The translations under genes and the position numbers were made by a program. A stretch of 64,000 nucleotides of DNA from Bolinopsis microptera (Eukaryota > Ctenophora > Tentaculata > Lobata > Bolinopsidae). Position 1 is the stretch's first letter. Each line of letters starts with the position of its first letter. Below are positions 13,301 to 57,200 of this stretch, piece after piece. The DNA lies in assembly GCF_026151205.1 (NCBI RefSeq), contig NC_087077.1:12562983-12626982 (forward strand). Direction: 5' to 3'. Under the pieces are notes generated by a model that was not told where the DNA came from, did no database searches, and worked only from the letters and a program-made list of their open reading frames with translations.

Positions 13301-16300
13301 TCTGGGCAAAAATTTCATCCAATCTGTCAAATTTGTGTTCAGAAAATTTCATATTTGAAAATGGGACAGACTTTTGAAAATACAACTTTTCGTTTTGTTA
13401 AGCTTCCTGCTGTGGGCTTCCTCCAACCGAAATCAAACTTCCAGCACCTCAATCGTGTCATATGCCACCCTTAGTTGAATTACTAATTGGTTGCGGGTGA
13501 GAAATTCAGTCAAAACTGTAAAATTTCGGTCCTGGAAATTTCATCTTCAAAAACTGAAAATGGGACAGAGATTGGGACAATATGATTTTACAATTTTGTT
13601 CAGGATTTTGACTTCCAGTATCCCAATTTGGTTTCATACCATCATCAATTAACTGACTGATTGGTTTCTGGGCAAAAATTTCATCCAATCTGTCAAATTT
13701 GTGTTCAGAAAATTTCATATTTGAAAATGGGACGGACTTTTGAAAATACAACTTTTCGTTTTGTTAAGCTTTCTGCTGTGGGCTTCCTCCAACCGAAATC
13801 AAACTTCCAGCACCTCAATCGTGTCATATGCCACCCTTAGTTGACTTACTAATTGGTTGCGGGTGAGAAATTCAGTCAAAAGTCAAAACTGTAAAATTTC
13901 GGTCCTGGAAATTTCATCTTCAAAAACTGAAAATGGGACAGAGATTGGGACGACATGACTTTACAATTTTGTTCGGGATTTTGACTTCCAGTATCCCAAT
14001 TTGGTTTCATACCATCATCAATTAACTGATTAATTGGTTTCTGGGCAAAAGTTTCATCCAATCTGTCAAATTTGTGTTCAGAAAATTTCATATTTGAAAA
14101 TGGGACAGACTTTTGAAAATACAACTTTTCGTTTTGTTAAGCTTTCTGCTGTGGGCTTCCTCCAACCGAAATCAAACTTCCAGCACCTCAATCGTCTTAT
14201 ATGCCACCCATAGTTGACTTACTAATTGGTTGCGGGTGAGAAATTCAGTCAAAACTGTAAAATTTCGGTCCTGGAAATTTCATCTTCAAAAACTGAAAAT
14301 GGGACAGAGATTGGGACAATATGATTTTACAATTTTGTTCAGGATTTTGACTTCCAGTATCCCAATTTGGTTTCATACCATCATCAATTAACTGACTGAT
14401 TGGTTTCTGGGCAAAAATTTCATCCAATCTGTCAAATTTGTGTTCAGAAAATTTCATATTTGAAAATGGGACGGACTTTTGAAAATACAACTTTTCGTTT
14501 TGTTAAGCTTTCTGCTGTGGGCTTCCTCCAACCGAAATCAAACTTCCAGCACCTCAATCGTGTCATATGCCACCCATAGTTGACTTACTAATTGGTTGCA
14601 GGTGAGAAATTCAGTCAAAACTGTAAAATTTCGGTCCTTGAAATTTCATCTTCAAAAACTGAAAATGGGACAGAGATTGGGACAATATGATTTTACAATT
14701 TTGTTCAGGATTTTGACTTCCAGTATCCTAATTTGGTTTCATAACATCATCAATTAACTGACTGATTGGTTTCTGGGCAAAAATTTCATCCAATCTGTCA
14801 AATTTGTGTTCAGAAAATTTCATATTTGAAAATGGGACAGACTTTTGAAAATACAACTTTTCGTTTTGTTAAGCTTTCTGCTGTGGGCTTCCTCCAACCG
14901 AAATCAAACTTCCAGCACCTCAATCGCGTCATATGCCACCCATAGTTGACTTACTAATTGGTTGCGGGTGAGAAATTCAGTCAAAACTGTAAAATTTCGG
15001 TCCTGGAAATTTCATCTTCAAAAACTGAAAATGGGACAGAGATTGGGACGACATGATTTTACAATTTTATTCGGGATTTTGACTTCCAGTATCCCAATTT
15101 GGTTTCATACCATCATCAATTAACTGATTAATTGGTTTCTGGGCAAAAGTTTCATCCAATCTGTCAAATTTGTGTTCAGAAAATTTCATATTTGAAAATG
15201 GGACAGACTTTTGAAAATACAACTTTTCGTTTTGTTAAGCTTTCTGCTGTGGGCTTCCTCCAACCGAAATCAAACTTCCAGCACCTCAATCGTGTCATAT
15301 GCCACCCGTAGTTGACTTACTAATTGGTTGCGGGTGAGAAATTCAGTCAAAACTGTAAAATTTTGGTCCTGGAAATTTCATATTCAAAAACTGAAAATGG
15401 GACAGAGATTGGGACAATATTATTTTACAATTTTGTTCAGGATTTTGACTTCCAGTATCCCAATTTGGTTTCATACCATCATCAATTAACTGACTGATTG
15501 GTTTCTGGGCAAAAATTTCATCCAATCTGTCAAATTTGTGTTCAGAAAATTTCATATTTGAAAATGGGACGGACTTTTGAAAATACAACTTTTCGTTTTG
15601 TTAAGCTTTCTGCTGTGGGCTTCCTCCAACCGAAATCAAACTTCCAGCACCTCAATCGTGTCATATGCCACCCATAGTTGACTTACTAATTGGTTGCGGG
15701 TGAGAAATTCAGTCAAAACTGTAAAATTTCGGTCCTGGAAATTTCATCTTCAAAAACTGAAAATGGGACAGAGATTGGGACAATATGATTTTACAATTTT
15801 GTTCGGGATTTTGACTTCCAGTATCCCAATTTGGTTTCATACCATCATCAATTAACTGACTGATTGGTTTCTGGGCAAAAATTTCATCCAATCTGTCAAA
15901 TTTGTGTTCAGAAAATTTCATATTTGAAAATGGGACAGACTTTTGAAAATACAACTTTTCGTTTTGTTAAGCTTCCTGCTGTGGGCTTCCTCCAACCGAA
16001 ATCAAACTTCCAGCACCTCAATCGTGTCATATGCCACCCTTAGATGACTTACTAATTGGTTGCGGGTGAGAAATTCAGTCAAAACTGTAAAATTTCGGTC
16101 CTGGAAATTTCATCTTCAAAAACTGAAAATGGGACAGAGATTGGGACGACATGATTTTACAATTTTGTTCGGGATTTTGACTTCCAGTATCCCAATTTGG
16201 TTTCATACCATCATCAATTAACTGATTAATTGGTTTCTGGGCAAAAGTTTCATCCAATCTGTCAAATTTGTGTTCAGAAAATTTCATATTTAAAATGGGA

Positions 16301-16885
16301 CAGACTTTTGAAAATACAACTTTTCGTTTTGTTAAGCTTTCTGCTGTGGGCTTCCTCCAACCGAAATCAAACTTCCAGCACCTCAATCGTGTCATATGCC
16401 ACCCGTAGTTGACTTACTAATTGGTTGCGGGTGAGAAATTCAGTCAAAACTGTAAAATTTCGGTCCTGGAAATTTCATCTTCAAAAACTGAAAATGGGAC
16501 AGAGATTGGGACAATATGATTTTACAATTTTGTTCAGGATTTTGACTTCCAGTATCCCAATTTGGTTTCATACCATCATCAATTAACTGACTGATTGGTT
16601 TCTGGGCAAAAATTTCATCCAATCTGTCAAATTTGTGTTCAGAAAATTTCATATTTGAAAATGGGACAGACTTTTGAAAATACAACTTTTCGTTTTGTTA
16701 AGCTTTCTGCTGTGGGCTTCCTCCAACCGAAATCAAACTTCCAGCACCTCAATCGTGTCATATGCCACCCATAGTTGACTTACTAATTGGTTGCGGGTGA
16801 GAAATTCAGTCAAAACTGTAAAATTTCGGAAAATTTCCTGGAAATTTCACCTTCAAAAACTGAATATGGGACAGAGATTGGGATT
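4385..16885. repeat. Satellite array, 366-bp monomer, about 34 copies
   Basis: About 12.5 kb of head-to-tail copies with a strict 366-bp period (for example equivalent points at 5101, 5467, 5833, 6199, 6565, 6931, 7663 and 8029). Internal copies differ at only a few positions. The first copy (4385-4500) and the last (16800-16885) are diverged or truncated, as expected at array edges. Each 366-bp monomer is itself two diverged halves of about 183 bp: compare CTAATTGGTTTCTGGGCAA with CTAATTGGTTGCGGGTGAG, and GAAAATGGGACAGACTTTTG with GAAAATGGGACAGAGATTGG, at matching offsets. A recurrent 81-codon minus-strand open frame is an accident of the monomer. It matches no family I know and is broken in one monomer type. 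Confidence 0.97.
10187..12407. repeat. Higher-order repeat: two copies of a three-monomer 1.1-kb unit
   Basis: Within the satellite, three distinguishable monomer types are repeated in the same order at a spacing of 1,099 bp. Type A has an extra GTGAAAAG insertion, GACGACATG and AAAGTTTCATCC. Type B has a small deletion giving CCCAATTTTTACC. Type C carries CCTTGAAATTT and TTTCATAACATC, which breaks the minus-strand frame. Copies start near 10187 and 11286. Type A and type C monomers also occur singly elsewhere (A at about 5833, 13876, 14977 and 16075; C at about 7297, 13140 and 14611). Confidence 0.85.
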
Positions 16886-30254: not shown

Positions 30255-33200
30255 CTTATTAAAGTATGAATAATGTTATAACTTTATTTATACTGAGTAA
30301 TATCAGCCGTAACTTGTAAGCAGTAGCCGGGCGTAGCCCTTCCGTCGAGAAATTAATCCCGGATGGCGGATAGAATAAGAAAAAATAGTTAATCCAGGAA
30401 TTTCATGACTTTTCTACTTTTCTAGAAACATTTACAGTCGAGTATTATTGGATCTATGTTCTTGTGAGTATGAAGTGTGAAATATGCGCCAGCGCCAAAT
30501 TGAATTGCATAATTCAATACCTTTGACTCACGAGTAATATTCCGATTCTGAGAAAAATCAGGTTCGTTTGAAAAATCCTCACTGCCCGATTTTTCGACAG
30601 CCCGTAGTTAAGATATTTAGTTATCATATATATTTACTAGTTAGAGCACTTGAGTTTAATATCATCTGTGTAAGCAAGTTATTAGTTTATGTTCCAATTA
30701 AAAACAGAGTGTTTGTAGATTTTAATTACACTACACAGTGATGTAGCATGTAACTATAGTAACGGTCACCATAACACTAGCAACGTTCACTGTAACCTTA
30801 GTAACGTTCGCTGTAACCTTAGTTACGTGAGATTATACGTAAGATGACATAGCTGCAGAAAGCACACTCAGCACTGAGTTAGTGTTTCAGGAGCTATTCA
30901 GGGCTGCTCATCCACTATGATATTTATTGTTGTGGTGTGTTCACTGTTTATTTGTAACGTTATACCTCACTCCCTCCCCACACCTGTCCATCAGTTGATT
31001 AAATCACTACATTAATAGCGCGTTAATCAAGTGCTAGCTTTTATTTGTTACAGCATCACGAGCATGTATGTTTGTGTTTATAGTTTGTTCTGTTGTGTAT
31101 TTTGGCGAGGTAAAATCTGATTAGAATTAACTGGGGAGTAGAATTACATGTATCGTGTACCGACTCTGCGCATCTATTGCGTCATACGCAATCCTAATGC
31201 GTTTTACGACACAGAAATATAATAATCGGTGTACTGCACAAATTCCGAGTGCGCTATTTACTTCCTTGTTTATACTGCAGTCAGCCAGCTCCTTTCCTTT
31301 TTGTTTGTTCAGTTTATTAAACTTAGCGTTCTTACTTTGCATTGCTTGTTGGTCAACACACACTGTCAGCTCATGCAGCTTTTGATAAACCATCCGTTGC
31401 TTCGTCTGATCCTAACATTCCTTCCCGTTCCCTTCTTCTCTAATCCCTTTCCCTCTCTTTCTCTCTATATCTCGTCCGTTCCGTCCCATCCCTTTCCCAG
31501 TCTTTCCCATCTATTCCGTCCCCTCCTCATCCCTTTCTACCATAACCCTGCCTTTTTCATCCCTTCCTTATCATTCCCATTCGTCCCTCCCTTTCCCTTC
31601 CCGCATTTCCTCATCCCATTCCCTAGCCCTATTTTTTCCCTTTCCTCCCATACCCTCCCTTTCTCATTCCTGCCCTATCTTTCATTATCTTAACTACCAC
31701 AACCAGGACGCAATGAACCAACTGTAGAGGGAACAGGAAGATCACTTTAAAATCAGAAGACGAGATCACTCAACAAACTAGTGACCACACACATTACAAT
31801 TTAGTCTAATGTTAATACGAAACTTCCAAAGTCTATCTGTCGTCTGCTACACATTAGGTAATAGGTAGTTATCATTTGTTATATAATAATCAAGTAAAGC
31901 TTTTGAATTTCGAAACGAACAATGCTTCTGTCGCGGAGTTAGTGAAATATTTCCTGAATGAGTGAAATGTTTGCAAAGTAGGTTTGCAGAGTTAGTACAG
32001 GAAAACACCGATTTTCCGCGTACTTTGGAAAGGGAAAAATTCGCGGTAAATCGGGTTTTGCGGTAAATCGGTTTAAAAATCCATAAAAGCGATAATTTTG
32101 AACGTTTAATGATACACTCAGTAATTTAATAACAGAATTCAGATCAAAATTAAAATTATTGCTGCTTTTGCATTAAGGGATCACGCGTCATGAATTTAAT
32201 CTATACATTATGAAGCGATAGGATTTCATTACATATAATACTGAATAATCATCTTCCTCTGAACGTCTAACTATCATACTGAAGTGAAAAGTGGTGGTCC
32301 AGACAATCGGGGAAACAACTGTTCAATAACTTTATCAAACTAACTATTTGAATCTTTACTTACCCTGCAGCTTGTATAAAATTTCGTATTTCAAGATAAT
32401 GGTAAAACTTTCAAATTGTTGGAAATAGTATTAGTGTCAAATTCGTCGGAAAAAGGCAAATTTTGAAGAAAAATTCGGGGGAGGGAATTACCCGCGGTAG
32501 ATCGGGGTTTTACTGTAAATGTCTGCAAAGTAAGTGAAATGTTTGCGGGTGAGTGAACCAAGAGAAATATTCCAGGATTGTTGGTGATATCAGAGGGCTC
32601 CATATTCGTGCCACCCGAACATACTGGCGGAAATTTTGTGTTTGATCTTGTAGATGTGAACGGGAGTCCGACACAGAATGGTACAGGAATTCTGGTAGCT
32701 AGAGACCCTACACACGACGGGGTGAGTTCACTAACAACATGTTTTATACTGTTTTAGGGGGCCAGGAGGAGTTAGAGGAATTATATGCTACGATGATATC
32801 CATCAGATTACAGACGAAATATATCGTTTTGTATAAATGACCATAATCAGTCTCCTTAAGGAAGAAAAACACTAACCAACTCCCAAACAATGATACCCTT
32901 CATGTCACAAGTAACTGGGTTGGTAACGTTACCGACCTTGGTTACTGATTATAGTGACTTAGATTATAGAATATTATAGTAACCTTGGTTACTGACTCTA
33001 GTAACCAAGGTAACTAAAGTTTGTGTTCCCAGCCTCCAGGAACGGTATGTGATGACGGGTTTACACATATATCTGCTACTGTTATCTGCAAAGAAATGGG
33101 CTACACCTGCGCAGAATATTGGGGAACAGGTAACGTGTTATTATTCATTTCTATCTTTCTACAACTACTGTACTGTGCGAATGAACTACAAAATGAAAAT

Positions 33201-36200
33201 GAAAGCGAAACTTTTGTAAAACATCAAATTATCATTATCAGGTACGCCGAGTCCCTACTTGGAGTCTTTGGACATAGTAATAGATAACATGCAGTGTTTA
33301 GATGTGAACCAGCCCTTCTCCAACTGCAGCTATAATTCGGACCACAACTGTGGACATAACGAGGACATAACACTAAGATGCGGTTAGTAACTCTCAGTTT
33401 CACTAAGTTACTTAGTAACCTTTGTTATGTAATTGAAATCAGTTGTTTGGTAACCGTGGTAACCTTAGTTACGCTCTGATAACCCCCTTCTGTTTCAGAT
33501 AGGTTATGTCAGTTTGATTTTAAACTAGTGGACAGTACTGGTGCACTTTCTACCAACAACTCGGGACTACTGGTCGCTACTAAATTAGGCACCGGCAAGG
33601 TGAGTTCTAAAATCCAACTCTTGTAAAACTGTCTTCCCCCCTTTCGAAACGAAAAATGCTTCTGTCGCGGAGTTAGTGAAATGTCTGCAGAATGGGTGTT
33701 TGCAGAGTTAGTACAGTAAAACCCCGATTTTCCGCGTACTTTGGAAAGGGAAAAATTCGCGGTAAATCGGGTTTTGCGGTAAATCAGTTTAAAAAATCCA
33801 TGCGATATTTTTGAAAGTTTAATGGATATAAAACATAACCTATCTGAAACAGAAGGGGGTTACTGTCTTCCCCCCTCAAAATAAATAAAAAGGTCCTTCT
33901 GTAAACTTCAGTTGAACATTTCAGAACGGGACAGTGTGTGACGATAATTTCGGTGGGGAGGCAGCACTAGTGATATGTCGGGCCATGGGCCATTCTTGTG
34001 CGGCTAGCTGGGCCAAGAGGACCGAGTGGCCCCTTCAGAGTAGCATGGACATCCTGCTGGACGATGTGACGTGCAATGTGGGAGCGCCCAACTCTAGCTT
34101 CACCGAGAGTTGCTCTTGGAAAATAGTCAACAATTGTGATCACAACGAGGATATCCATCTGTCTTGTGGTGAGTAATAATTATACTGTATAATAATCACA
34201 CGTGAATGTGCGCAGTATCACGTGCCTATATCCCTCCCTCCTCGTTACCATGACAACCACTCTCCTGCAGGTTGTATATCAGATAAGTACGAGTTCTACA
34301 CTCTAGGATCAGATGGGCAGAAGAGTGCTGACGGCAGTGGACTCCTCATAGCTAAAGAGAAAGTCTCTGGCGAAGATAAGGTTTCACATTTATCGCGATT
34401 CAAAGCAAGCCAGCAACATTTTGGCTAGAACATTGAGTGAATATCAAGTCCCGAGATTGAGTGATGCTTAGAAAGTAAATTAGTAACTATGTTAAAAGTA
34501 GTTACCAATAGTAACTAAGGTAACACTTATAACCACTAGTAACCACTAGCAACCACTAGTAACCACTAGTAACCACTAGTAACCGCTAGTAACCACTAGT
34601 AACCGCTAGTAACCACTAGTAACCGCTAGTAACCATGGTAACACTATCACTCCAGGGTAAAGAAGGCACAGTGTGCGACGACAGCTTTGCGGAAGCAGCA
34701 GCCAACACAATCTGCAAACAAATGGGATTCAGCTGCTCTGTATTCTACGAGTCAGCTGGGGAAACACCAGACGAGCCGTGGCCAGCGGTGCAAGCTAACT
34801 TCTCAGTGGTACTGGACAATGTGGAGTGTACGGAGGGTCTGTCCGGAGAGGGACACTGTAGTTACTCTATAGAGCCCAACTGTAAACACAGCGAGGATAT
34901 ATTCCTGCACTGCGGGACTGAAGATCAGTGTTCTCGAGCTGCCTTCTCCTTCTTCACGGTTGATAGGAATGGAGAGAAAACTAACAATGGATCAGGGCTG
35001 CTCATAGCTGCTAGATCTTTCCATGAAGCGGTCAGTTGTTTTCTCAAATGTGTTGAGATCTACATCTCTTTACAGCTTAGGGTCGATTTTTTAAAATAGA
35101 AAACAGCCAAAAATAGAAAGATGTTTTTACAAAAGCCCCTTTATTGGGAATTGAAATCGCTTTTATGAATGCTCGCTTTAAGAAAACATGATAATGATAT
35201 TTTACTGACATACTGTAATGTTTACCTACTACTACTACAACAAACACCCTGATAAGTACTATTTATGTTATCTAACATGCATATTTTGCAGGCGGCTGGA
35301 ACAGTATGTGATGACAATTTCAACAGCATCTCCGCTACTCTGATCTGTAAGGAGATGGGCTACGAATGCAGTGTAGGCTGGCATGCGGGAGCTAACTGGG
35401 ACCAACAGAACCTTTATGATATTGCACTTGATAATATCCTGTGTGGCAGCGCCAACAGAACGTTTGCGGACTGTAAGTACGATACCCAACACAACTGTGG
35501 CCACTCTGAGGACATATTCTTGTCGTGTGCGTATGACTGCACTTACAACTTTTATCTTGTGGATGATGCTGGTGCAAAGACTACAACTGGAACTGGACTG
35601 CTTGTCGCTTCAAGAAGTCTCACTCATGAGGTTTTTATTTCACTTCCTTTATACACTTAAAGGCTAGGGGGGAGCGTAGTTGAGTCGTTTAAGCAACCTA
35701 AGATTCCCCCTTAAAATAAGGGCATCCTATAACAACTGAAAAATAGCAGTATGTTCAAAATGGTGTCTAGAAGCTTATTGAATAACGAGTAACGTTTCAG
35801 AACGGTACAGTGTGTGACGACAGCTTCACTGATATCTCCGCTTCTGTTATCTGTAAAGAGATGGGATTCGCTTGCTCTGCCTACTGGAATGCTGGGGTGA
35901 GCACACTAAATTTTACTTTTAATTTTACTTTCACTTTCACTTTGGCGTCCAAGCGTTCACTTGCATGTCTAGTGTTGGAAACTAAACTGGTCACTATTCA
36001 GGGGGAAACAGAATTACAAACGAGTATGAACATGACTATAATGTTGGACAATGTGAAGTGTGTCGACGATACCCTCAACTTTCTAAACTGCAGTTTCAGC
36101 TCGGGTGGACACAACTGCAACCACAGAGAGGACGTGCACCTCGTTTGTTGTAAGTAGGCCCTCGTCTATCCTCCAAATAAAACAGGAAAACATTGACAAT

Positions 36201-39200
36201 ATTCAAGTATCAAATGTTAAAATTTAGCGCAATGTTAAATTGTAGCCAAATGTTACAAATTTAATCTCTTCAGCTGAGAATTGCGAGAAGGAGACAATAT
36301 CGTTTTCTTTGGCAAACAGTGCAGGAGAGGACGCAACAGAAACCGGGTCAGGACTACTGCTTGCTTCCAGAGACATAGCAGACTCTATTCAAGTGGTAAG
36401 TCTTTCCATGGAACAGAGTACGGCCCATTAATCTGATTTAAACAATTCACCTATTCAAAATGGTGGCTTTTCAAGTGGACCAACCTATAAGTAGGAAGTA
36501 ACAGGGGCTATTAAGTATGAGAGTCTTCGTCGTAATCAAAAAGCCCCGAATTATTATTTCAGAAAGGGACAGTGTGTGATGATGAGTTCTCCCTTATAGC
36601 GGGTAATGTGATTTGTAAGGCGATGAACTTCGATTGCGCTCAGTCCTTCCACAGGTAAGATCATTGAGTGTTTTATTTTCAGTGTTCAAATAATATATCA
36701 AATTCATGTTATTATTTTAAAGTTCAGAAATTAAGTTTGATCTAGCGTAATTATTTAATGTGTTGTTCAGTTGTTGTTATGTTATTCTTGTGATTTTTGT
36801 CAGTAATATTGGCGTTTTCATTACTAATTATCAATATTATTTAAATACCGGTTCCACACAGCGGTGAACAATGGGAGGAGTTACAGGGAGGATTTAACAT
36901 AGTCCTAGATAACGTAATCTGTAGTAACGGGGAGAACTTGACCTTCGCTGAGAACTGCACTTACAGTGTCAGTCACAATTGTGGCCACTCTGAGGATGTG
37001 TTTCTTACCTGCGCCAGCGGTCAGTTATAGTTGTTTCTGGACCATGCGATGACATCGTTCAGTCAAATTATAGAACTTAGCACGATGATAATAATATGAG
37101 GGATGTAGATAAACTGTTGTTGCTGTTTTTTCCTTCTAAATATCTAATCATATCTTGTTATCAGGAGATGATTGCTCCATCACTAAAGCTACGAAGTTTT
37201 CTCTCGTTACAAGCACCGGAGCACCATCCACATCAGGATCAGGGCTTCTCATAGCAACTACTGTACAAACCGTAAGTACTAAGTAATCATTGCAACTACT
37301 GTACAAACCGTAAGTACTAATTAATCATTGCAACTACTGTACAAACCGTAAGTAATCATTGCAACTACTGTACAAACCGTAAGTACTAATTAATCATTGC
37401 AACTACTGTACAAACCGTAGGTACTAAGTAATCATTGCAACTACTGTACAAACCGTAAGTACTAAGTAATCATTGCAACTACTGTACAAACCGTAAGTAT
37501 TAAGTAATCATTGCAACTACTGTACAAACCGTAAGTATTAAGTAATCATTGCAACTACTGTACAAACCGTAAGTACTAATTAATCATTGCAACTACTGCA
37601 CAAACCGTAGGTACTAAGTAATCATTGCAACTACTGTACAAACCGTAAGTACTAAGTAAACATTGCAACTACTGTACAAACCGTAAGTACTAAGTAATCA
37701 TTGCAACTACTGTACAAACCGTAAGTACTAAGTAAACATTGCAACTACTGTACAAACCGTAAGTACTAAGTAAACATTGCAACTACTGTACAAACCGTAG
37801 GTACTAAGTAATCATTGCAACTACTGTACAAACCGTAAGTAATAAGTAATCATTGCAACTACTGTACAAACCGTAAGTACTAAGTAATCATTGCAACTAC
37901 TGTCCAAACCGTAAGTACTAAGTAATCATTGCAACTACTGTACAAACCGTAAGTACTAAGTAAACATTGCAACTACTGTACAAACCGTAAGTACTAAGTA
38001 ATCATTGCAACTACTGTACAAACCGTAAGTAATAAGTAATCATTGCAACTACTGTACAAACCGTAAGTACTAAGTAATCATTGCAACTACTGTCCAAACC
38101 GTAAGTACTAAGTAATCATTGCAACTACTGTACAAACCGTACGTAATGATTTAAAAGTAAGCTTAAGTAGAATATATACTACGTTTTTTAGGAAGAAAAG
38201 TAGCACGATAAACCAACTTTACTTTATTTGGTAACCTTGTGTGATCTTGTAAACTCCACTTCCTAAAACCCCTCCCCTCCTAGACTGGAACAGTGTGTGA
38301 TGATAGGTGGTCTGATGTAAGCGCGGCAGCAGTATGCTCCGAGATGGGCTACCCGTGCGCGCTGTCCTGGACCTCCGGTGACTCCTCGTGGGAGATCCAG
38401 AACAGTTACACCATAGCCATGGACAACCTGTACTGCGAGTCAGATAACTTTACCACGTGCACATTTGATCTGGCGCACAACTGCGGTCATACGGAGGACG
38501 TGTTCCTGACATGTTCCCACAAGTGTTTGACTAGCGGGGCGGTGATCAGTGCCCAACTTGTGGATAATGAGGGAATGCTCTCTACTACTGGCCAGGGTCT
38601 ACTTCTGGTCACTTCCAAAGGCGACGACATAGTAAGTTATCTTATCTTTTACTGAATACTTTTTGTTACTTATTCCCTTAAATATTTTGCTAAAAACACA
38701 GTCCACTAGCTGAATTCTGAAAGCTAAAATTTATTAATTCCTTCAGGCAGATACAGTTTGTAACAAAGGGTTCGAAATGGTGGACGGGATGGCGTTCTGC
38801 AGAACAATGGGATACTCATGTGCACTAGCAGTAAGTAGCGCTGAGCAAGATGCCACTGATCCGTGGGCTATACAGAGCACATACGACATCATGATGTCTG
38901 ATGTGGAGTGCCAAGAGGGGGCCAAAAACCTTACTGCATGTAACTACAACTTGGTCCACGACTGTGACCATATTAACGACGTATACCTGACATGTGGCGG
39001 AGTACAGAATATAGCACGTGTAGGGGTGGCTAGTCAGAGTGGCACTCATTTAGATGCAGGAGCTTGGAAAGCTATAGACGGCAACACTCTCGGCAGCTAC
39101 TTTACGTAAGAAACACATTAACTTCACTTAAATCTTATTCATCAACTATTATGACTTTACAATTTACAAATGTGTTATTTCTCGACTTTTATCATCTAGC

Positions 39201-42200
39201 GCTTGCTCTCTTGGAACTAATTGTGTAGAGTGTAGAGATAAATAATATAAGACACTCCTTACAGAGACGATTCCACGACGCACACAGTCCTGAACGATCC
39301 TACAGGTCACGTGTGGAGGGTAACCTGGGACAGAGAGTACACCGTAGGCTCCATAGTGATCTACAACAGGGCAGACTGTTGTCAGGAGAGACTTATTGGA
39401 GCTACAATACACGCTAACGGACAGGTCATCGGCACAGTTAGCATGGCAGGGGGAGGAGACATGTCTAAGTTCGAGTTTACCGGTTTGAACCTGGTAACTA
39501 ACCAGGTGGAGATAGTGGGAGGGACTGAGGGGGCTGCTTTAGAGGCGCTGTCTCTTGCGGAGGTGGAGGTGTTCCTCAGGGAGACCAGCTCAAGTAGGTG
39601 TCATATTTGTATAATATAATGTACTATTTATAGTACTACAAAAACAAACTTTTCGTGTCACTTATATGTTTTGAATAATCCCCCTCCAGACTATTTATAG
39701 TAGTATTTTCCATTTAACTGTGCATTCAACTTTGTAAATTATTTTCAAAGATTTTAAAAAGGTGTAAAATGAAACCTCTCGTAAATAAAACCCGTACCTC
39801 AGCTACAAAGTGTGTTCCCACCTTCTCTCTAATGAACGAGAACGGAACAGCTTCAACCACTGGTCACGGTCTACTGGTGGCACACAGTCCTGGATACACT
39901 GACTCAGAGACTGGTGCTGGCACTGTGTGTGATGACCTCTTCTCAGACGAGAGTGCTAATGTTGTTTGCAAGACCATGGGTTACCAATGCTCTTCTTCTT
40001 GGAGTCATGGCGACAGGTAACACACGTGTTATTGTGTGGCGCGCCCTGTAGTGTAGTTAGTGGTGGATTGGTACATCTAGTAGTTTCTTCCAAGCTTTAA
40101 AAATATTGTGTTCTTGACGCATGTTTCTTATCTATCACAAAAACAGAATAGTTAACCTACAGTACTTTACTTACAGCTGTTTGTTGACTAACAGTACCCT
40201 ACTTAAAGGTGGAGTATACAAGCTACGCTAGATGTGATACTAGACGACGTACAATGTCCCTCCAACACCTCCCCTTTCACCAACTGCACCTACGTCACCG
40301 ACAACCACAACTGCGCGCACACGGAGGATGTGTTCCTGACGTGTGATAACGGTCTCATCCCTCTGGGATGCTGGTTAGATACAGGATTTGCAGGGCAGGG
40401 AGCCGCTATTCCCAGTTTAGAGGGTGGCAACCCTGTATCAGACGAACATTGGACTGCTAGAGAGGATCCTATATCAGTTTGCAAACTGGCTGCTGAGTCT
40501 AAAGGTAAACACTGCTTATCATTTTACTGAATGTTAAATGCTGGTTTTATGCTATTATTATTATATAACTTTATTCAAATCAAAAATAGAACATAAATGA
40601 ACATCTTAAAGATCTGATAAGTAGCCAGAAAAAAAGAAAAACTGATACACAAGCTATAACAACTTCTTCCATCCCGCTCTATCAGAGGCTAAAAGTCTTA
40701 AATTGTACAAATCGTCTGTATTTACAAATGGAATGTTCCTGCTACCTAAATCAAATTTAATAGTCTTAAGCAAGTATGCTATACAATATACAATATACAT
40801 ACCTTATAAGTAATTCATTAATACTTTCAGTATCTTCGATTTAATTAAAGGAAAGATTAAATATTTATCAGTATTTGATTTTGTAGATTATGAATACTTT
40901 TAATCAATATGTTGTCATACGATATCTTTGATTTACATCATGATTTCTGAGTGCGACAGAAATAAGCCCCAAAATTTAGGTTAAATCTGATAAAGTTTTA
41001 ATTTGTTCAATACATTCCAGGCTGGACGGTGTTTGCTGTGCAAGCAGGAGGCTGGTGTTCCAGCTCATTAAACGCAGGGGACTCCTACGACATGTACGGA
41101 ATTTCTACTGACTGTAATGATAACGGGACAGGGGGACCCTGGGCTAACAGTGTCTACAATATAACAGGTTAGATAGATCTTGAGAGCGGACTATTTCTCT
41201 CAGCTGATTTCAGTGTTGCCTAACTAAACACACCATGTTGTGGCCCCATAGTTAACAACATCCTCCCACAGAGTCAGGGCTACAGTTACTGGGTTGCTAT
41301 AGAGACACTGCGTCACGTGCTATACCGTCTCTAGAACACGAGGGTCAGCATCCCATGCTAGACGGGGAACCTTACTACAGAGAGAATCCTGTGGAGAAGT
41401 GCAGACAGGCTGCTAAAGCTAGTGGTAATGTTATTTTAGTTGTTGCTAATGTTACCAGCGTTAAGTAGCATTTTATTATTTTGAATCCGGTAAATTTATT
41501 AAAGTTTTACCAACAAGATAATGCAGTGCTAATTGAGTAATTCAATACGAGAGCTCTAGCTGGGTGACCTTGACAGTACATAACATAAGTTGTTTCCTCG
41601 AGGGTTCTAATCACTAATAATATATTACAACACAATCGTCAATCGTGCCCTATTGGAGCCTACTGCTATACAATTCCAAACACAATGTTTTATTTTTCAC
41701 AGAAGACCAGTATATTTAAAACTTTTACTCTTCACTTCCGTGATGGCTTGCGACCGGGTGTACCCGATTCCCGTGACTGGTACCTAGGAAAAGAGCGAGG
41801 ATATAATATATTGCATGCTGCTATGGAAAACCAAAAATAAGGCGAATTCGTTTGCTGGGTATCCTTGCAGTATGGATATAAACTGCGCAGACTCGCTCGG
41901 ATTACTAGAAACTGTCGTCAGTCAATCACGCACGAGGTGGGAGTATCTTTCGGGTGTAAAGACTTGCTATCTTTACATCAGTCGGGATTAGTACCTAATC
42001 GAGCATAAAAGTAACATTAGGGGAGTACTCTCCCCACTTTTTATCACTGCAGTCGCTTTATGACCCTAGTCGTGTTTTAGTAGGCTTCAAAACTAATGGT
42101 AACGTTCTTTTGGTTTCTACCGATGTTATTACCATCATCAAATAGCATTTTACTCTATTTCTGCGGGAAAATCTATTTAAGTTTTACCAACAAGCTTTGA

Positions 42201-45200
42201 CATTTTACCATGTATAGTGTTTACAAGTCGAATGTCCGATACGATACCTGAATTACCTTTAATAGGTTTAGGAAGCGTAGTTATTCCTTTGCTCGAGGCT
42301 TTCAACCAGGTATTACAACACAATCGTGCTCGATATCAGCCATTGAGTTCCACTCTTAATTAACTACATAATTAAGTAAATAATTGTATTGTTATCATCT
42401 TATCTGGTACTTAATCCCTGATCATCAGATCCAATAAGACAAAGATCTCGCATAATTTCATGAGCCCACTGGGCACGGCTATACAATTCCAAACACAAGG
42501 ATATATCTTCCACAAATGAGCAGTATATAGCTTACTTTTACATACCATATTTGTGGTGGCTGACGACAGGGAGCACATATAATGAACGCATTATAGTCCC
42601 GTGACAGCAGAACGCTCGAGTATCCTAAATATTTATGCTGTATATAATACTTATGTCTTATATGGATTACGTCCAAACGGATCCGTATGCTTCATACAGG
42701 AGAAATATTAGATATAAACTGCGCAGTCTCGTTCGAACTGCTAGAAGCTGTTGTCGGTCATCATGAAGGCGCGAGGTTGTAACTACCGCGAGCTCCGCAA
42801 GGGAGCTCTAGCTACTTACTCTGACGAAAACATAGTACTCAGTATAATGTTAGTATGTCAGTACAGAATGTAATGGGAGACTCATTCTGTAGCCTCATGC
42901 TTAAAAATTACTCTAGGGGAGCATTCTCCCCACCTTTTATTAGCATCATGAAATTTTCATGTTGATGCACATATAAATTTATACTGGATAAATTTATACT
43001 GGAACACTAAATAGTAGAACTAAACTAAAACTACACTTCCTACTTTCTACAATCATTGCTCACAAAAACATTTCAGGTTTCGAATTTTTCGCGGTACAAG
43101 CTGGTGGATACTGTATGAGTTCAGCTCAGGCAGGTACCATGTACAAAGTTAATGGTAAGAGTGATCTGTGCACAGGCGATGGGCAGGGAGGACATCTTGC
43201 TAACGACGTCTATCAAATCAGAGGTAATTTAGTAACTTAGTAACCAGTCGCAGTAACTAAGTACCCATCAATAATACGGTAGCATTAAGTCACAGTAAAT
43301 AAGTAACCATCAATAATAAGTTAGCACCAAGTCACAGTAACTAAGTAACCATCAATAATAAGTTAGCACCAAGTCACAGTAACTAAGTAACCATCAATAA
43401 TAAGTTAGCACCAAGTCACAGTAACTAAGTAACCATCAATAATAAGTTAGCACCAAGTCACAGTAACTAAGTAACCATCAATAATAAGTTAGCACCAAGT
43501 CACAGTAACTAAGTAACCATCAATAATAAGTTAGCACCAAGTCACAGTAACTAAGTAACCATCAATAATAAGTTAGCACCAAGTCACAGTAACTTAGTAA
43601 CCATCAATAATAAGTTAGCACCAAGTCACAGTAACTTAGTAACCATCAATAATAAGTTAGCACCAAGTCACAGTAACTAAGTAACCATCAATAATAAGTT
43701 GGCACCAAGTCACAGTAACTAAGTAACCATCAATAATAAGTTAGCACCAAGTCACAGTAACTAAGTAACCATCAATAATAAGTTAGCACCAAGTCACCTT
43801 AACTAAGTAACCATCAATAATAAGTTAGCACCAAGTCACAGTAACTAAGTAAGAAAAGGACTTATACAAACAGTCGAGAACTCTCGACCCCTGATTCTGA
43901 TGTAGCAGAGGAGTTTAGCTGCGTGTGTGGTCGACGCTTTACAACGGAAAGGGGTAGGAACATTCATCGAGGAAGGATGAAGTGCTCTTGGGAAGGGGAG
44001 CAACCGTTAGATGTTGCATCTGTAAGTTCGGTGGAGGTACCTGGCCAGGACGATAACCACAGTGCCAGGGATATCCAGGCCCTTCTTTCAAAGAGTTCTT
44101 CTATTGACCCACCTGCCCCTAAGAAGCCCAAGGTGAAGTGGCCGGCCGCAAAGGATGAGAGGTGGGTAGAGTTTGATGTGAGTGTTAGTAAGAGAGTGAG
44201 ACAGGAGCAGAAGGGGAAGCCATTCCAGGAGAAGATGGTGAGCCATTGCGACACGGTGTATGATGATGGTGTGAAATGGTTTGGGCTCGTGATTGATGGT
44301 GCAGAGTCAGGTAAAGGTCTCAGGTTTGCCAACAGGAGACAGGAGGAGATTGATAAGTTGGTCATTGAGAGGAGAGTGCTGAGGAGGAAAGCCAGGAAAG
44401 CTTGTTCCCAGTCTGTAAAGGATGGTTTCAATGCTTTGCTTAGAGGCCTGGCAGAGAAGCTGTGTAAGTTGAGAAGAGCAGAGGCAAGGAGGAAGAAGCA
44501 GAGAGAAGTGAGGAGACATAGAGGTGGGTTTACTCGAGATCCTTTCAAGGCTATTAAAGGTATTCTTGAACCAAGCCCTGTGGGAGAGTTAAAGTGTAGT
44601 AAGGAGGAGTTAGACAACCACCTGTCTAATACGTATAGTGATGCCAGTCGGGCAGTTCCTCTTGGCGTTCTGAATGGGTTACCTGAGGCAGCTCCTAGCC
44701 CAACTGTGGGGTTTGACATCAGGAATATAACCAAGAAGGAGTTCGACGAGGTTATTAAGAAAGCCAGAGGTAAGAGTTCACCTGGTAACAACAGCATCCC
44801 GTATACGGTGTACAAGAGGTGTCCAGGAATATCTCAGAACTTGTGGCATGTGCTGAGAGGAGGCTACAAGGCTGAGGAGTACCCAGACAACTGTAGGTAC
44901 TTTGAAGGGATCTACATTCCTAAGGCGGATGGAGATTTTGGACCCAGCACAGGACGGCCTATATCGCTAGGAAACATTCAGGGGAAGATATACCTCGCTG
45001 TGTTGGCGAAAAGATTAACCAACTTTGTTGTCGCTAACGGATATGTGGATCTCTCTGTGCAGAAGGGTGGAGTTCCTGGTGTACACGGATGTACAGAGCA
45101 CTTTGGAGCTATGTGGGAGGTGCTCAAAGATGCTAGAGTTAAGAGAAAGGATCTGAGTGTTGTCTGGTTAGACTTGGCGAATGCTTACGGGGCTGTTCCA

Positions 45201-48200
45201 CATTTACTTATTGTGAAAGCACTCCGCTTCTATCATATCCCCGAGAAAGTTATCAACATCGTAATCAAATACTTCTCGGAGGTTTACGGAAGATTCTCCT
45301 CTAAAACAGTGACATCAGAGTGGCAGCAGTTCGAGATAGGAATATTTATGGGCTGTGTCATCTCGGTGATCTTGTTTGTGCTATGCATGAACCTTTCTGA
45401 CGAGTACTTGAAGATGAAGGTACCCAGGAGTGTCGAGTACATTAAGGATGGAACAGCTATACCACCCCTTAAGCTGTTTATGGATGATAGCTGCCTTACC
45501 ACGGCTAAAATGGTAGATATGCAAACCCTGCTTGATGTTTATCAGGAGTTCGTTGTGTGGTCAAGGTTCAAGCTTAAGTCGTCTAAGTCTAGGGCACTAG
45601 TCTACCAGAAGGGAGTGACAGTGGAGTGGGTTGTAGAGAGTTCAGAAGTTAGTCAGGCGAGGTTGCAGCTTAGCGGGGAGGTGATCCCGAATGTATCTGA
45701 GAAACCAATCAAGTTTCTAGGGAGGTGGATTCGGGCAGAAGGAAAGGACAAAGCTATAATCGAGAAAACACACGAGGATCTTGTTACATACCTCAGTAGA
45801 CTCGATCTTAGCTCCCTCACCGGCCTGCAGAAATGTTGGGGGTATCAGTATATGGTCCTTCCAAAGATGAAGTGGCCACTTGCCATTTATGATATCCCGA
45901 TCAGCACTGTTTCTCGCTGGGAGCAAACAACTAACAGTCATCTCAGAAAATGGCTAGGAGTGGGACACACGCTTAGTAGCTCTTGCCTGTTTAGTCATTC
46001 ATCCAGTGTTGCTCTCCCCATCGACAGCCTAACCGACACTTGGAAAGTAGAAAAGTGCCGTCTCTTGCAGTCATATCAAACATCTCAGGATGCTTTGATC
46101 AGAGCGGTGCAACCCCAGGTGCGGTCTGGGAGAGTTTGGAAGGCAGATGCTCAGCTTCACGAAGCTGAAAGAGACTTGGTGTGTGAGTCAGTGCGAGGTA
46201 TGGTGCAACCTCTTAGTAGAGCGGGAATTGGTTTCGGTGATTGGAAGAAGCCCTGGGAGAAGATGTCAGAAAAGGAGCAGCAGAGGGAGGTGTTGGATAG
46301 GGTTAAGGAGAACATCAGGAAGGAAAGAGAGGTGCAGTTGGGTACGTTGGAGATGCAGTCCAGGTGGGGTAATTGGAGAGAGCTGGTGACAAGGACTGAC
46401 ATGAGCTGGCACACGCTCTTCAAGTATGGGGACTCATTAATCGGTTTTCTGCTTAGTGCTGTGTATGGCACGCTTGTTACACCAGCTTTAGCATCCAAGT
46501 GGAGCGAGGATGAGGATGGGATGTGCAAGCTGTGTGGTGACAAGTTGGGAACTGTGCCGCATATTCTGGCTGGTTGTCCTGTGGCACTAAGTCAAGGGAG
46601 ATACCGATGGCGCCACGATAAGGTGCTTAAACAAATAGCAGACCAAGTGAAATTCCATTGTGAGCGGAGAGTCAACAAGAGGAAGAGCTCTTGTGTCACT
46701 CGGAAAGCCATTGAGTTTGTTCCAGCAGGAGGGAGGTTTAAGGAGGTGAAGAGGTCGAAAGTCAGTGAGTTTGGGATTCTGAGTGGGGCCACTGATTGGA
46801 TAGTATTAGCAGACCTGGATGAGCAGCTGAAATTCCCGTCGGATATAGCAACGACCAGATTAAGACCAGATTTGGTTCTTTTCTCGAAAGCTTCCAAGAG
46901 AGTAATCTGGTGGGAGCTTACAGTACCGTCGGAAGAGAGAATAGCTGCATCCCATGAGCTGAAGCTTGATCGGTATAACAGTCTACAAGCGGAAATACAA
47001 GCTAATGGGTGGTCATGTTTCAGCTTTGCTGTTGAGGTTGGTGCTAGAGGTGTGGTCGCAGCAAGTTTGGAGTGTGCATCAAGGAAGATTGGTCTGACTG
47101 GGAGAGCCCTCAAGAAGTTGGTCAGAGATTGTGGGAAGGATGCAGCCCATTGTTCAAGATGGATTTATCTGCTGTCTAGGAAAAGAGAGTGGGAGATGAG
47201 AGCTGTTTGAGCTTTATGACTTCACCTAACAGCCAGAGGTGCCATAAGCTAACTCGTCGTAAATCGCGAGCTCTAGCAGGTATCCTCGGGTGATTGTCAG
47301 ATCAGATGGTGGTCCAAGAGAGACTGCTGGGGCACCTGACAGAAAACCGTATCGCAATGAAAGCCCCGAAACGGTGTCAGGTTTGTGACTGAAGATTCTG
47401 ATCAAGCTCAGGGTTGAGTCTACACAGTGTCGCCACTTGCCGATGCCAGTTGATGCGAGAAGACACTGATGTAAGTGGGAAGTTATGTCTAAGAAACAGC
47501 GTGTGGTTCGGGTGCCGGTTGAACGCATGTAAAAGGGAGGGTATATCCGTATTTCGCTGCTAGTGATGCAGTCCTTAGCCCGGTAGCTAAGGCTTCCCCG
47601 TTTCTCGCTCATTTGTGCTCCAATGGGCTTGTGACCTCTGCGGGGGTCAAGTGCAGGATGAGGGACATGGCTGACCAGGAGAAGGTTGTTTTTGGGAGAT
47701 AGAGTAAGGTTGGTTTGATGTTGTGCCTTCGCAGTTTGACTGTATCTTTACTCTACCATCAATAATAAGTTGGCACCAAGTCACAGTAACTTAGTAACCA
47801 TCAATAATAAGTTGGCACCAAGTCACAGTAACTAAGTAACCATCAATAATAAGTTAGCGCCAAGTCACAGTAACTAAGTAATAATAACAGAATCTGTCTC
47901 CACAGATAACGCGTGTTCAGTGGTTAATAAGGACTACAAGTTCTACTTTGTAGACGAGAAGGGAGCCAGGGCCATTAACTCAGGCCTCCTTATTGCTGAG
48001 GGAAAGTCAGGCCCTGGGGTAAATATTTTATTTTGCGGCCAATTTTCAGCAACAAAACGGCAAAATTGCTTAAGAGCTGATCTCAGTGTCGGTGTGAGTC
48101 GTGGTGTTACTAACAGTTGTTAGTTGTGATGTTACTAACCACAGCTGTTGTTATGTTAACAGTACAAATTACTCGCAGGAGTTACCAGGCACAGTGTGTG

Positions 48201-54200: not shown

Positions 54201-57200
54201 GGTTCCGTTCAGGCCCTTCACACTTTGTTTCTGTCTAGTTCTAATGTACCGTCACAATAGTGACTTTAATATAAACCTGATGGCAGATTATGATTTAAGG
54301 GACTGGCCCACACGAACTATAATGTTTACAGCTCAACAGTCCGTCTCTGTAACCCGCAGAGCATATCATATTACTAACCCGCCAATGCTTTAAACTTTCA
54401 AACAGCAACCGAACGTTACCATGACAACCTGCAACGACCCCACATATCCAGTGTCATAACAAGAGCGAGTTAACTGTTAATGATATAATAACCAATCTAT
54501 CAAACTCATTATCTCATATTTGGCTTTATTCCAGCACATCCATTACCCCATATTTGGCGTCTGTCAAGATTCTACTTAACACGCTACATATTAAAGTGAG
54601 ACATACATTCAAGCTAATGTTTCCAATAAATACATGGGTGGCGAATATGTAATGGTCCTATTTGCGCTGAGCTGAATTCTATGACGTCACAGCTCTCGTA
54701 ATGAGTTGTGCATGTTGTGCAGCAGTGTGACAGAAACTGTGGTGTTGACTTAATAACTATGCACAGTAGAACTCCAAGTAAAGCTTGCTTATTAAGCAGA
54801 GTTCTGGTGATGGTTGAGTAGTGTAGCGCGTGTAGCATGGCAGTGCTTGTAGAGAGTTATACTGTAATAGTAAGCAGGCACCGTGATGTAATAATACTAC
54901 AAATATAGGTTCTTAACGCAAGCTTAAAAAATATTGGCTTTTTTCTGCTTTAAACTTTTAAAGATAAAAACTACAGCTGTATATATAATTGAAATAGAGG
55001 CTTGAGAAACTACATCCAGGAGTAGCTTTGAAAACTTATCAAAGGAAATTATGGTTGATATTTCTGTTTTACTATATTTACCCTTTGGTTGTGGTACAGG
55101 TATCTCAGAATGATTTTAATTGAAACCACGTTCGATGAAAAACTTACCTCCCGTAATCGTTCATATAATCGGAATTTCTACAATTCATTGAATAAGCTAA
55201 CAATTTGGTTACTTTTATGAACGATGTTCATGAAGATCACGTACTCTTCAGTACCGTAATAAGTACCGTAATAAGTACCGTAATAAGTACCGTAATTACC
55301 TGTCTTCAGACTGAAGTAGGAGCTCCTTATTCTGGGAGACCTCAATCTCCAGCTCGTGTCCCCTCTCCTGCTCCTTCCTTCTTCCAGCCTCGCTCTCTTC
55401 GAAATTCTCTCTCAGTTTTGCACACTTATCCTCGCATTCCTTTATAACTAAACTCTGAGGGGAGGGGTTACAATGGTGCACATTGTACATTCATAAAACA
55501 GTGTAGATGACATCTATCCAGTAGAATAACAAGACAATCATAACATCATTGAAAGTTTTCAGTCTGTAAGTATGTCTGTAAGTATGTCTGCAAGTATGTC
55601 TGTCAGTATGTCTGTCAGTTAATCAGAAAGTATGTCAGTAAGTATGTCTGTTAGTAATCTAAGTATGTCTGTAAGTATGTCTGTAAAGACGTGTAAGTAT
55701 GTACCATGTTGTCAGCTTGAGATTTGTACTCCTCCTCCATCCTACTCATAGAGTTGGTTGTCTCATCTATAAGTTTCTGTAAGTGTTCCTGGTTTTCGGC
55801 TTGTAACCTCACTGTTGCTTCCTCCTGCTCCTCCTTCAGCTTAGATAACTAGGAATAAAGTACAATCTTATTGTCTAGAGTCTCCAAATTCAAATTCTAA
55901 TTTACTATATTAAGTTGAAAATACGTGAAAACTGCCTCAGTCCTGAAATGTGATTTTGATAAAGACCCCCCGGCCTCCTTATGTAATAAACTATTTTGTT
56001 ATCTTACCCTCTTCTCGCACTCCGTCCTCAGATTTGAGGTAGTCTGATTCTGTGCGTTCCTAAAATCATATGCCTGACGTTCCTTTACCTCTCTTAACCT
56101 CACATTTTCCTCTTGTGCCTGTGTGATTTTATGTTTAACCGATTAGGGGATCATGTAACAAATTTAAACGATACTAAATAACGAGATTTATGCTTTGATG
56201 GGTCAAGTTATCTTACTTGTTAAAGGCTTTTTTTTCTCTAAGGCTTAAAAGGTTAATTATATGATGTATAATACTTGAAATTAACTGACAAGAGCTTACA
56301 TAATATATAACTTAATTAAATTGGAAATAATTTTAAGATCGTTTTTCTTGGTGGTTATCAATCTTAAGATTCTACACTCGTTTATCTTGGGGCGACTGCG
56401 GATGAATACCATCATTACTGATTTGTCGATTTCATATGAAACGTCAGCTAACACATCTCATGACAAAGAAAGAGAATGTCTAACATCCTCAATCCTCATA
56501 ACGGTCACACAGACACTGAAGACAAACAATCCCACAGAAACATATGCTAATCATATTAATCTGCTGAAGACGATTTAAAGATGCTTTTTTAAACTTCTGT
56601 TTAACTAACAAACTTAACTAACTATCGTATTACAAATATATTTCAAGAATCTCCCATCATTTCGTTCTAATCGTCTTACTTTACCTGTTGTAACCTCCTC
56701 TCTAAGGTCTTGTTGTTGTTTTCAAGTTGTAAAACTTTATTTCTGTACTCGGATCTAAATTCTTCTACTTCTTTCGTCTTCTTGTCCAGGATCTAGTGGA
56801 TTGATTTAATACATTTTATTAAATTAAACGGTAAAATCGTGACTTGACCATACTACGCATAAAGTTTCCTTTAAATTTTAAATTGAATTATTTTTCTTTT
56901 GTAGGAACGGGGTATTTAATACTTTGTTTCATTTAGTTTCATTTTATTTCGTTAATTTAGTTTTGATTAGACTGTTAAAAATGGCATAAAATTTAAATTT
57001 TTGTTTCACTGAAAGTAACTTCCTTTAAGTGCAACTCTTAAAAACTAATTTCAACTTTACAAGAACATAATATTAATACATAATGAACAATAAACATTCA
57101 CCATGTTGCAATATTTACAACAGAGCTATGTCGTGACTAAAGCTACCTTCTGTAAAAGCTCGTCGTGATGACGCTGAAGTTTCAATCTCTCCTCACTATA

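Follow-up and report, generated by a model that had tools for sequence, protein, structure and literature searches.

How does a gene cope with an exon end and its splice donor standing 24 times in a row, and which of the copies serves as the junction? This question was raised by a locus of the ctenophore Bolinopsis microptera, within a window (the whole stretch of DNA analysed) of 64,000 nucleotides (NCBI RefSeq assembly GCF_026151205.1, contig NC_087077.1, positions 12,562,983 to 12,626,982, forward strand). The assembly containing the window comprises 264.65 Mb, of which 13 contigs hold 97.5%. An earlier note, made from the letters of the window, offered two answers: a strong preference of the spliceosome for the outermost donor, or a regulated, truncated form of the protein. 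We favor, with a probability of roughly 0.8, a reading in which the array is a tolerated splice-junction minisatellite, or "mirage", whose outermost donor would be spliced and whose duplication would be nearly neutral.

Anatomy of the receptor-gene array

The features on which the analysis of this locus rests are as follows.

32576 to 39593, plus strand: 17 modelled exons of a multi-SRCR gene, placed by eye, in a single frame
37165 to 37271, plus strand: exon 14, 107 nt, ending GLLIATTVQT
37249 to 38153, plus strand: SRCR array, 24 units of 23 exon-like bases and 15 intron bases (8 in unit 3)
37272 to 37277, plus strand: donor 1 (GTAAGT), the frame-keeping junction, in unit 1
37284 to 37286, plus strand: in-frame TAA, four codons past donor 1
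37272 to 38283, plus strand: intron 14, 1,012 nt
38284 to 38631, plus strand: exon 15, starting TGTVCDD

Judged by its predicted protein, the array-bearing gene is a scavenger-receptor (multi-SRCR) gene, with Pfam SRCR matches in eight stretches (E 1.1e-87) and an F5/8-type-C-like domain. It extends past both the model and the array. Expansions of SRCR genes are described for another ctenophore, Mnemiopsis, in PMC11797021. The 17-exon model ran without a stop over 1,103 aa with donor 1 closing exon 14, which, as far as the reading frame goes, bears out the earlier claim that unit 1 is the gene's own junction. The coding score at the end of exon 14 ranked in the top 0.6% among 795 control sites. 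Exon 15 shares its phase with seven sister exons, each of which opens an SRCR domain (model exons 2, 5, 7, 8, 9, 12, and 16), and the match in both start and phase places intron 14 at a recurrent position of the gene, not at a new one.

The array was delimited unit by unit as well as with TRF. TRF reported a 38-bp unit in 23.8 copies at 37249–38145 (score 1612, 94% matches), and the unit-by-unit reading gave 24 copies across 37249–38153, 23 of them 38 bp long and one, unit 3, of 31 bp. The copy number of 24 in the earlier note stood, and its unit of 38 bp held for all copies except unit 3. The consensus unit consists of an exon part, TCATTGCAACTACTGTACAAACC, followed by an intron part, GTAAGTACTAAGTAA. 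Unit 1 departs from it at one base, and exon 14 consequently has 22 of the 23 exon-like bases in common with the consensus; the note was right that an exon end and its donor had been amplified, but the 18 exon bases that it counted per unit were too few. The donors are near-identical, as had been claimed: 20 of the 24 read GTAAGT, three read GTAGGT (units 5, 10, and 15), and the last, in unit 24, reads GTACGT. Variants were ordered in a five-unit higher-order repeat, the order seen in units 16–19 recurring in units 21–23, and 17 differences were counted among the 21 internal units. A comparison of selection on the exon and intron parts of the units (7/483 vs. 10/315 differing sites) was set aside for having too few differences. 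A 24-fold repeat at such identity is no product of chance.

That the assembly falsely expanded a single copy, or a handful of them, into the array appears very unlikely. Minisatellites are hard to assemble and a single assembly was compared, but the scattered unit differences, the 31-bp unit, and the higher-order repeat argue against such an artefact, as do comparable arrays with other units at many loci; the exact copy number at the SRCR locus may still be wrong.

Reading through donor 1 adds VSTK and then meets the TAA. Every later donor would consequently come after a stop, and the note's statements that the TAA lies four codons past donor 1 and that use of a later donor would truncate the receptor were both correct. 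The 23 extra copies account for 867 bp, and intron 14 without them would measure 145 nt, like the neighboring introns; the remaining 15 introns of the model measured 102–325 nt.

In the mirage reading, a tandem duplication would have arisen across the border between exon 14 and intron 14 and been copied further, probably through slippage and unequal exchange, so that all copies except the first would sit within the intron. The spliceosome would pair the acceptor of exon 14 with the first, exon-proximal donor, by exon definition. The array would be spliced out inside the 1,012-nt intron, and the protein would be unchanged because the array leaves with it. In arrays at acceptors, the mirror case, the last copy would be used. 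Near-neutrality of such a duplication would explain why arrays recur at the exon edges of many genes in this genome.

Other repeats were present in the window. Further along the SRCR gene, an intron held a 42-bp array that was split into two blocks (43246–43852 and 47755–47881) with ~3.9 kb between them. This insert, apparently a non-LTR retroelement that entered the minisatellite, held a frame of 1,121 aa (43845–47210, plus strand) in which a C2H2 finger at the N-terminus and an FMDD motif like that of reverse transcriptases were recognized by eye. Separately, a satellite with a 366-bp unit occupied 4390–16883 (34.2 copies, 96% matches by TRF).

Recurrence in the window and across the genome

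A second junction array was found ~20 kb from the first, in an unrelated gene, a recurrence that the earlier note had missed.

58911 to 59305, minus strand: exon of a DUF4485 gene, borders by eye, its end inside the second donor array
58500 to 58925, minus strand: second junction array, 23-bp unit, 18.3 copies (TRF), first phase-0 donor at 58910
57147 to 57251, minus strand: next exon on that strand, GIVEKEVQMKERLL..., by eye, phase 0, fitting the array donor at 58910

The exon at 58911–59305, joined to the preceding one, matched Pfam DUF4485 (E 6.7e-22), and the protein of the next exon starts GIVEKEVQ (by eye). Further downstream on the minus strand, two 12-bp arrays without exon sequence began 3 and 18 nt past donors at 55299 and 55704 (by eye); they probably belong to the same gene.

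Genome-wide, arrays were sought as donor words occurring three times in succession, and flanks were retrieved for arrays among the matches listed, roughly the first 100 places per search. Outside the window, 31 arrays were retrieved. Two (L021, L022) were dropped since the array start was not reached and two (L031, L050) as duplicates of L030 and L049, leaving 27 independent arrays; the places C1:7503, C3:10448458, and C3:10725660 were left out of the sample. Exons were called from open frames, exon bases common to the units, and a codon score. The control for this score consisted of 795 GT sites from parts of the window regarded as non-coding; unmodelled exons may lie in some of these parts.

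An exon end together with its donor was amplified in nine of the 27 arrays, one of them a weak case (L002, L003, L007, L009, L010, L019, L024, L029, and L030). Three others (L001, L011, and L025) started at the donor itself, and in the remaining 15 the first donor was without an exon (L004, L005, L006, L012, L013, L015, L016, L017, L018, L023, L026, L027, L028, L049, and L056). The proportion of nine in 27 is no genome rate, and rates from this sample are biased, because the arrays were picked by donor words and list position. Among the nine, the codon score fell within a control tail of ≤0.05 for L003, L007, L019, L029, and L030 and of 0.05–0.07 for L002, L009, and L024; L010 failed it (0.22). 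L015 and L026, classed as lacking an exon, nevertheless scored in the top 5% of the control, which tells either against the score or against their class, and the score is a soft test. For L025 it favored phase 2, against phase 0 by eye. The next exon was in phase at L024, L029, and L001 (by eye).

Pfam searches with flank proteins, in two sets, gave matches for 4/10 and 5/9 and none for 6/10 and 4/9; those of L003 (WD40-like), L011 (kinase), and L048 (MFS) lay under the curated cut-offs. From their coordinates, the arrays at L029 and L024 were ~101 and ~109 units long. In the 14 tabulated loci with a junction or donor-start array, read-through of the first donor met a stop after 1 to 64 codons. 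An idea about unit length modulo 3, suggested by the first loci being mostly 2 mod 3, was dropped because the 14 loci split 8, 4, and 2 (2, 1, and 0 mod 3), tallied by hand with the DUF4485 array counted as 23 bp and L025 as 25 bp.

Word counts give the wider setting, with overlapping hits of three words in a row, not loci, being counted and the reversed word serving as a rough control. GTAAGT gave 16,408 overlapping hits genome-wide vs. 3,050 reversed. Longer donor words gave forward to reversed counts of 451:0 for CAGGTAAGT, 460:0 for AAGGTAAGT, 319:7 for CAGGTGAGT, and 5,033:45 for GGTAAGT, and the acceptor word TTTTCAG gave 741:192. Taking the enrichment of donor words as proof of a donor hot spot was rejected, because the non-splice word GTTACT, at short gaps, reached a higher ratio than GTAAGT (42,481 overlapping hits vs. 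1,889 reversed, genome-wide). GTTACT-type words were also common in the introns of the window.

The abundance of GTAAGT arrays would be in keeping with a dispersed repeat or introner-like element that was inserted at the junction and carried its own donor. Yet a two-unit probe of the SRCR array, searched against the assembly, gave 12 matches among the best candidates scored, all within the SRCR array itself, with no near-identical copy found elsewhere. Each tabulated junction array, moreover, repeats the exon end of its own gene, and units vary from locus to locus. We consider an inserted element highly improbable, the least probable of the explanations weighed here.

At three loci the unit is almost entirely exonic (27 of 29 bases at L003, 33 of 35 at L009, and 33 of 34 at L030), and an exon hexamer one base off the donor lies one period upstream (GCAAGT, CTAAGT, and TTGAGT, respectively). 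These sequences fit slippage between the donor and a donor-like exon word. No such word was found one period upstream at the SRCR locus, and slippage of this kind does not explain the array there.

Arrays at acceptors were sampled with three TTTTCAG words, and 17 of the 19 arrays among the matches listed were examined by eye, without a codon control. In four of the 17 the intron end and exon start were amplified, the last copy adjoining the exon:

L036, acceptor array: TSP1, E 2.8e-15 (Pfam)
L038, acceptor array: no Pfam match
L041, acceptor array: M1 peptidase, E 1.5e-16 (Pfam)
L048, acceptor array: MFS, E 0.0068, under the Pfam cut-off

At L038 and L048 the common exon part was only ~10 bases long. 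A sample independent of splice words was taken from eight 10-kb stretches, in which arrays of at least 4 copies and a period of at least 9 were collected. It contained 13 arrays, three stretches being without any. Flanks were inspected by eye for four of the 13, one of which (L063, 3941–4545, minus strand) amplifies an acceptor and 24 bases of exon start (EDILLAKI...); a further block of the same unit at L063 5451–6190 was tallied separately in the 13. This sample gives a lower bound from few cases, because the other nine arrays were only scored and their scores are maxima over positions.

Several further arrangements were seen along the way. In the 37-bp array at C8:7268823–7269127 (L005), whose first donor is without an exon, the unit ends TTATTTCAG and restarts GTAAGT; on the sequence, an acceptor appears fused directly to a donor, which is the layout of a recursive splice site. 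At L010 (C10:17037541, minus strand), the donor array lies at a small exon, and upstream of this exon the acceptor and exon start stand twice in tandem; the exon may thus be duplicated at each of its edges. A donor-bearing array of AAGGTAAGT units spanned ~7.4 kb at C2:21866316–21873721 (L022, L052), its start not reached. Antisense arrays at L016 and L027 adjoined exons with matches to LMF1_C (E 1.7e-28) and MoCF_biosynth (E 1.9e-13) and apparently lie on the acceptor side of these exons.

Which copy is the gene's junction

Protein homology was used to locate the junction in genes with conserved domains, and in a homeobox, an M1 peptidase, and a CDK gene the junction that it predicts falls on the outermost copy or on the edge of the array. 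In the homeobox gene (L009, C10:4506848), the homeodomain runs LAQIQVQ, array, VWFQNRRAKCKK, and the joined domain matched with E 4.4e-23. Five other homeodomain matches in the genome also span positions 1 to 46, where the exon of L009 ends. For the nuclear-receptor zinc finger, none was found in the genome vs. 111 homeodomain matches, a control that does not prove absence; to our knowledge, ctenophores lack this finger. The M1 peptidase (L041/L053, C2:21467408) runs VIAHEVAHQ, array, WFGNLVT...NEGFAS. At L011 (C1:217513), a CDK-like gene whose Pfam kinase match is under the cut-off, the protein runs GLDLLE, array, AMLEYQPANRI. The greater part of the intron there is taken up by the array, and the acceptor lies in the last unit. 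The L011 units contain a donor and also an acceptor with the first exon bases.

The intron of the homeobox gene would measure 71 nt from the last donor vs. 771 nt from the first. A shortest-intron rule would favor inner sites, and exon definition favors outer ones. Joining of the conserved protein at the outermost site in the homeobox and M1 peptidase arrays lends indirect support to the earlier suggestion that the outermost donor is preferred.

The other suggestion, a splicing regulator, supposes that U1 is held along the 24 donors and that inner donors are used in some transcripts, with array length acting as a dose; the product would be a receptor cut short or else a transcript eliminated by decay. 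In keeping with it, 20 of the 24 donors retain the full GTAAGT, inner donors would allow introns down to 145 nt, ordinary for the SRCR gene, and the in-frame TAA would precede each later donor. However, a young array would show high donor identity anyway, as the few differences among its internal units illustrate, and a like anatomy occurs in the homeobox and M1 peptidase genes, unrelated and conserved, for which routine truncation would carry a high cost. We regard a regulator as unlikely, and continue with the tolerated minisatellite.

We extend this reading to the genome with about even confidence. The Bolinopsis genome may keep making minisatellites from its own donors and acceptors, and by loose extrapolation the genes concerned could number in the hundreds or more; the spliceosome, by exon definition, would ignore up to ~100 competing sites, and some of the arrays would be seeded when a donor slips against a similar word in the exon. 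If this is true, use of the outermost site across unrelated genes would mean that exon edges are read by exon definition, and that competing inner sites are ignored even where the intron would be of short, ordinary length. Studies of the choice among equal splice sites usually work with a small number of artificial copies. Here, natural arrays offer tens to ~100 near-identical donors or acceptors, some of them in conserved genes, and, standing in one genome, they could let existing RNA reads reveal outermost-site use and leakage against copy number. Iso-Seq reads went into the annotation of B. microptera (PMC10232365). The main interest of the locus lies in this recurrence and in the natural test of splice-site choice, not in a regulated truncated receptor.

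Relation to known systems

Amphioxus mirages are said to have been described by Canestro et al. (2002). They are minisatellite-like tandem duplications of exon–intron boundaries (PMC3087553), found in the genes for Adh3, the globins BflGb6 and BflGb9, troponin C, and PGBD5 (PMC3087553, PMC3902484), with PGBD5, Adh, and troponin C given as further cases in PMC3902484. In the globins both 5′ and 3′ boundaries are affected and lengths vary (PMC3087553). The SRCR tandem units likewise join exon and intron sequence over the gene-model junction (unit 1, the end of exon 14), and the junction lies at the array edge with the remaining copies intronic, as read from the frame in the DNA. The arrays thus resemble amphioxus mirages in their boundary-spanning units, in affecting both 5′ and 3′ boundaries, and in the junction at the edge, and their units of tens of bases are like those of Adh3 (10–72 bp). 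They differ in occurring in many genes and reaching up to ~100 unit lengths, whereas the amphioxus mirages lie in few genes and BflGb6 haplotypes carry 3 and 6 units. RT-PCR suggested that regular splicing is undisturbed by the amphioxus mirages (PMC3087553), which also speaks indirectly for preference of the outermost donor.

A human counterpart is the 31-bp VNTR of CBS, c.1444_1467+7(16_21) (PMC2630376). By its name, each unit comprises 24 bases of exon and 7 of intron, so that every copy spans the donor junction. The original paper on it is reportedly that of Lievers et al. Every SRCR copy likewise spans the donor junction, here with 23 + 15 bases in 24 copies compared with 16–21. The CBS VNTR is one human locus whose length varies between people, and the SRCR array is known from one assembly. 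Also in CBS, c.844_845ins68 duplicates the intron 7/exon 8 junction, and splicing strongly favors the more distal copy (PMC2630376). This is a single 68-bp duplication and the SRCR case an array, but both duplicate a junction.

Intron gain by tandem duplication is described in PMC4974935, and the model is discussed in PMC3087553. Splice signals are duplicated here as well, but an existing intron was lengthened and none is new. Mirage-type repeats could nonetheless create new introns according to PMC3087553, and the present arrays show exon sequence captured into introns, the route proposed there. Among open-licence papers, we did not find splice-junction arrays outside chordates or at genome scale in print. 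The SRCR array belongs to a known kind, since amphioxus mirages and the CBS VNTR had already been described; what appears new is the scale of such arrays and their occurrence in a ctenophore genome.
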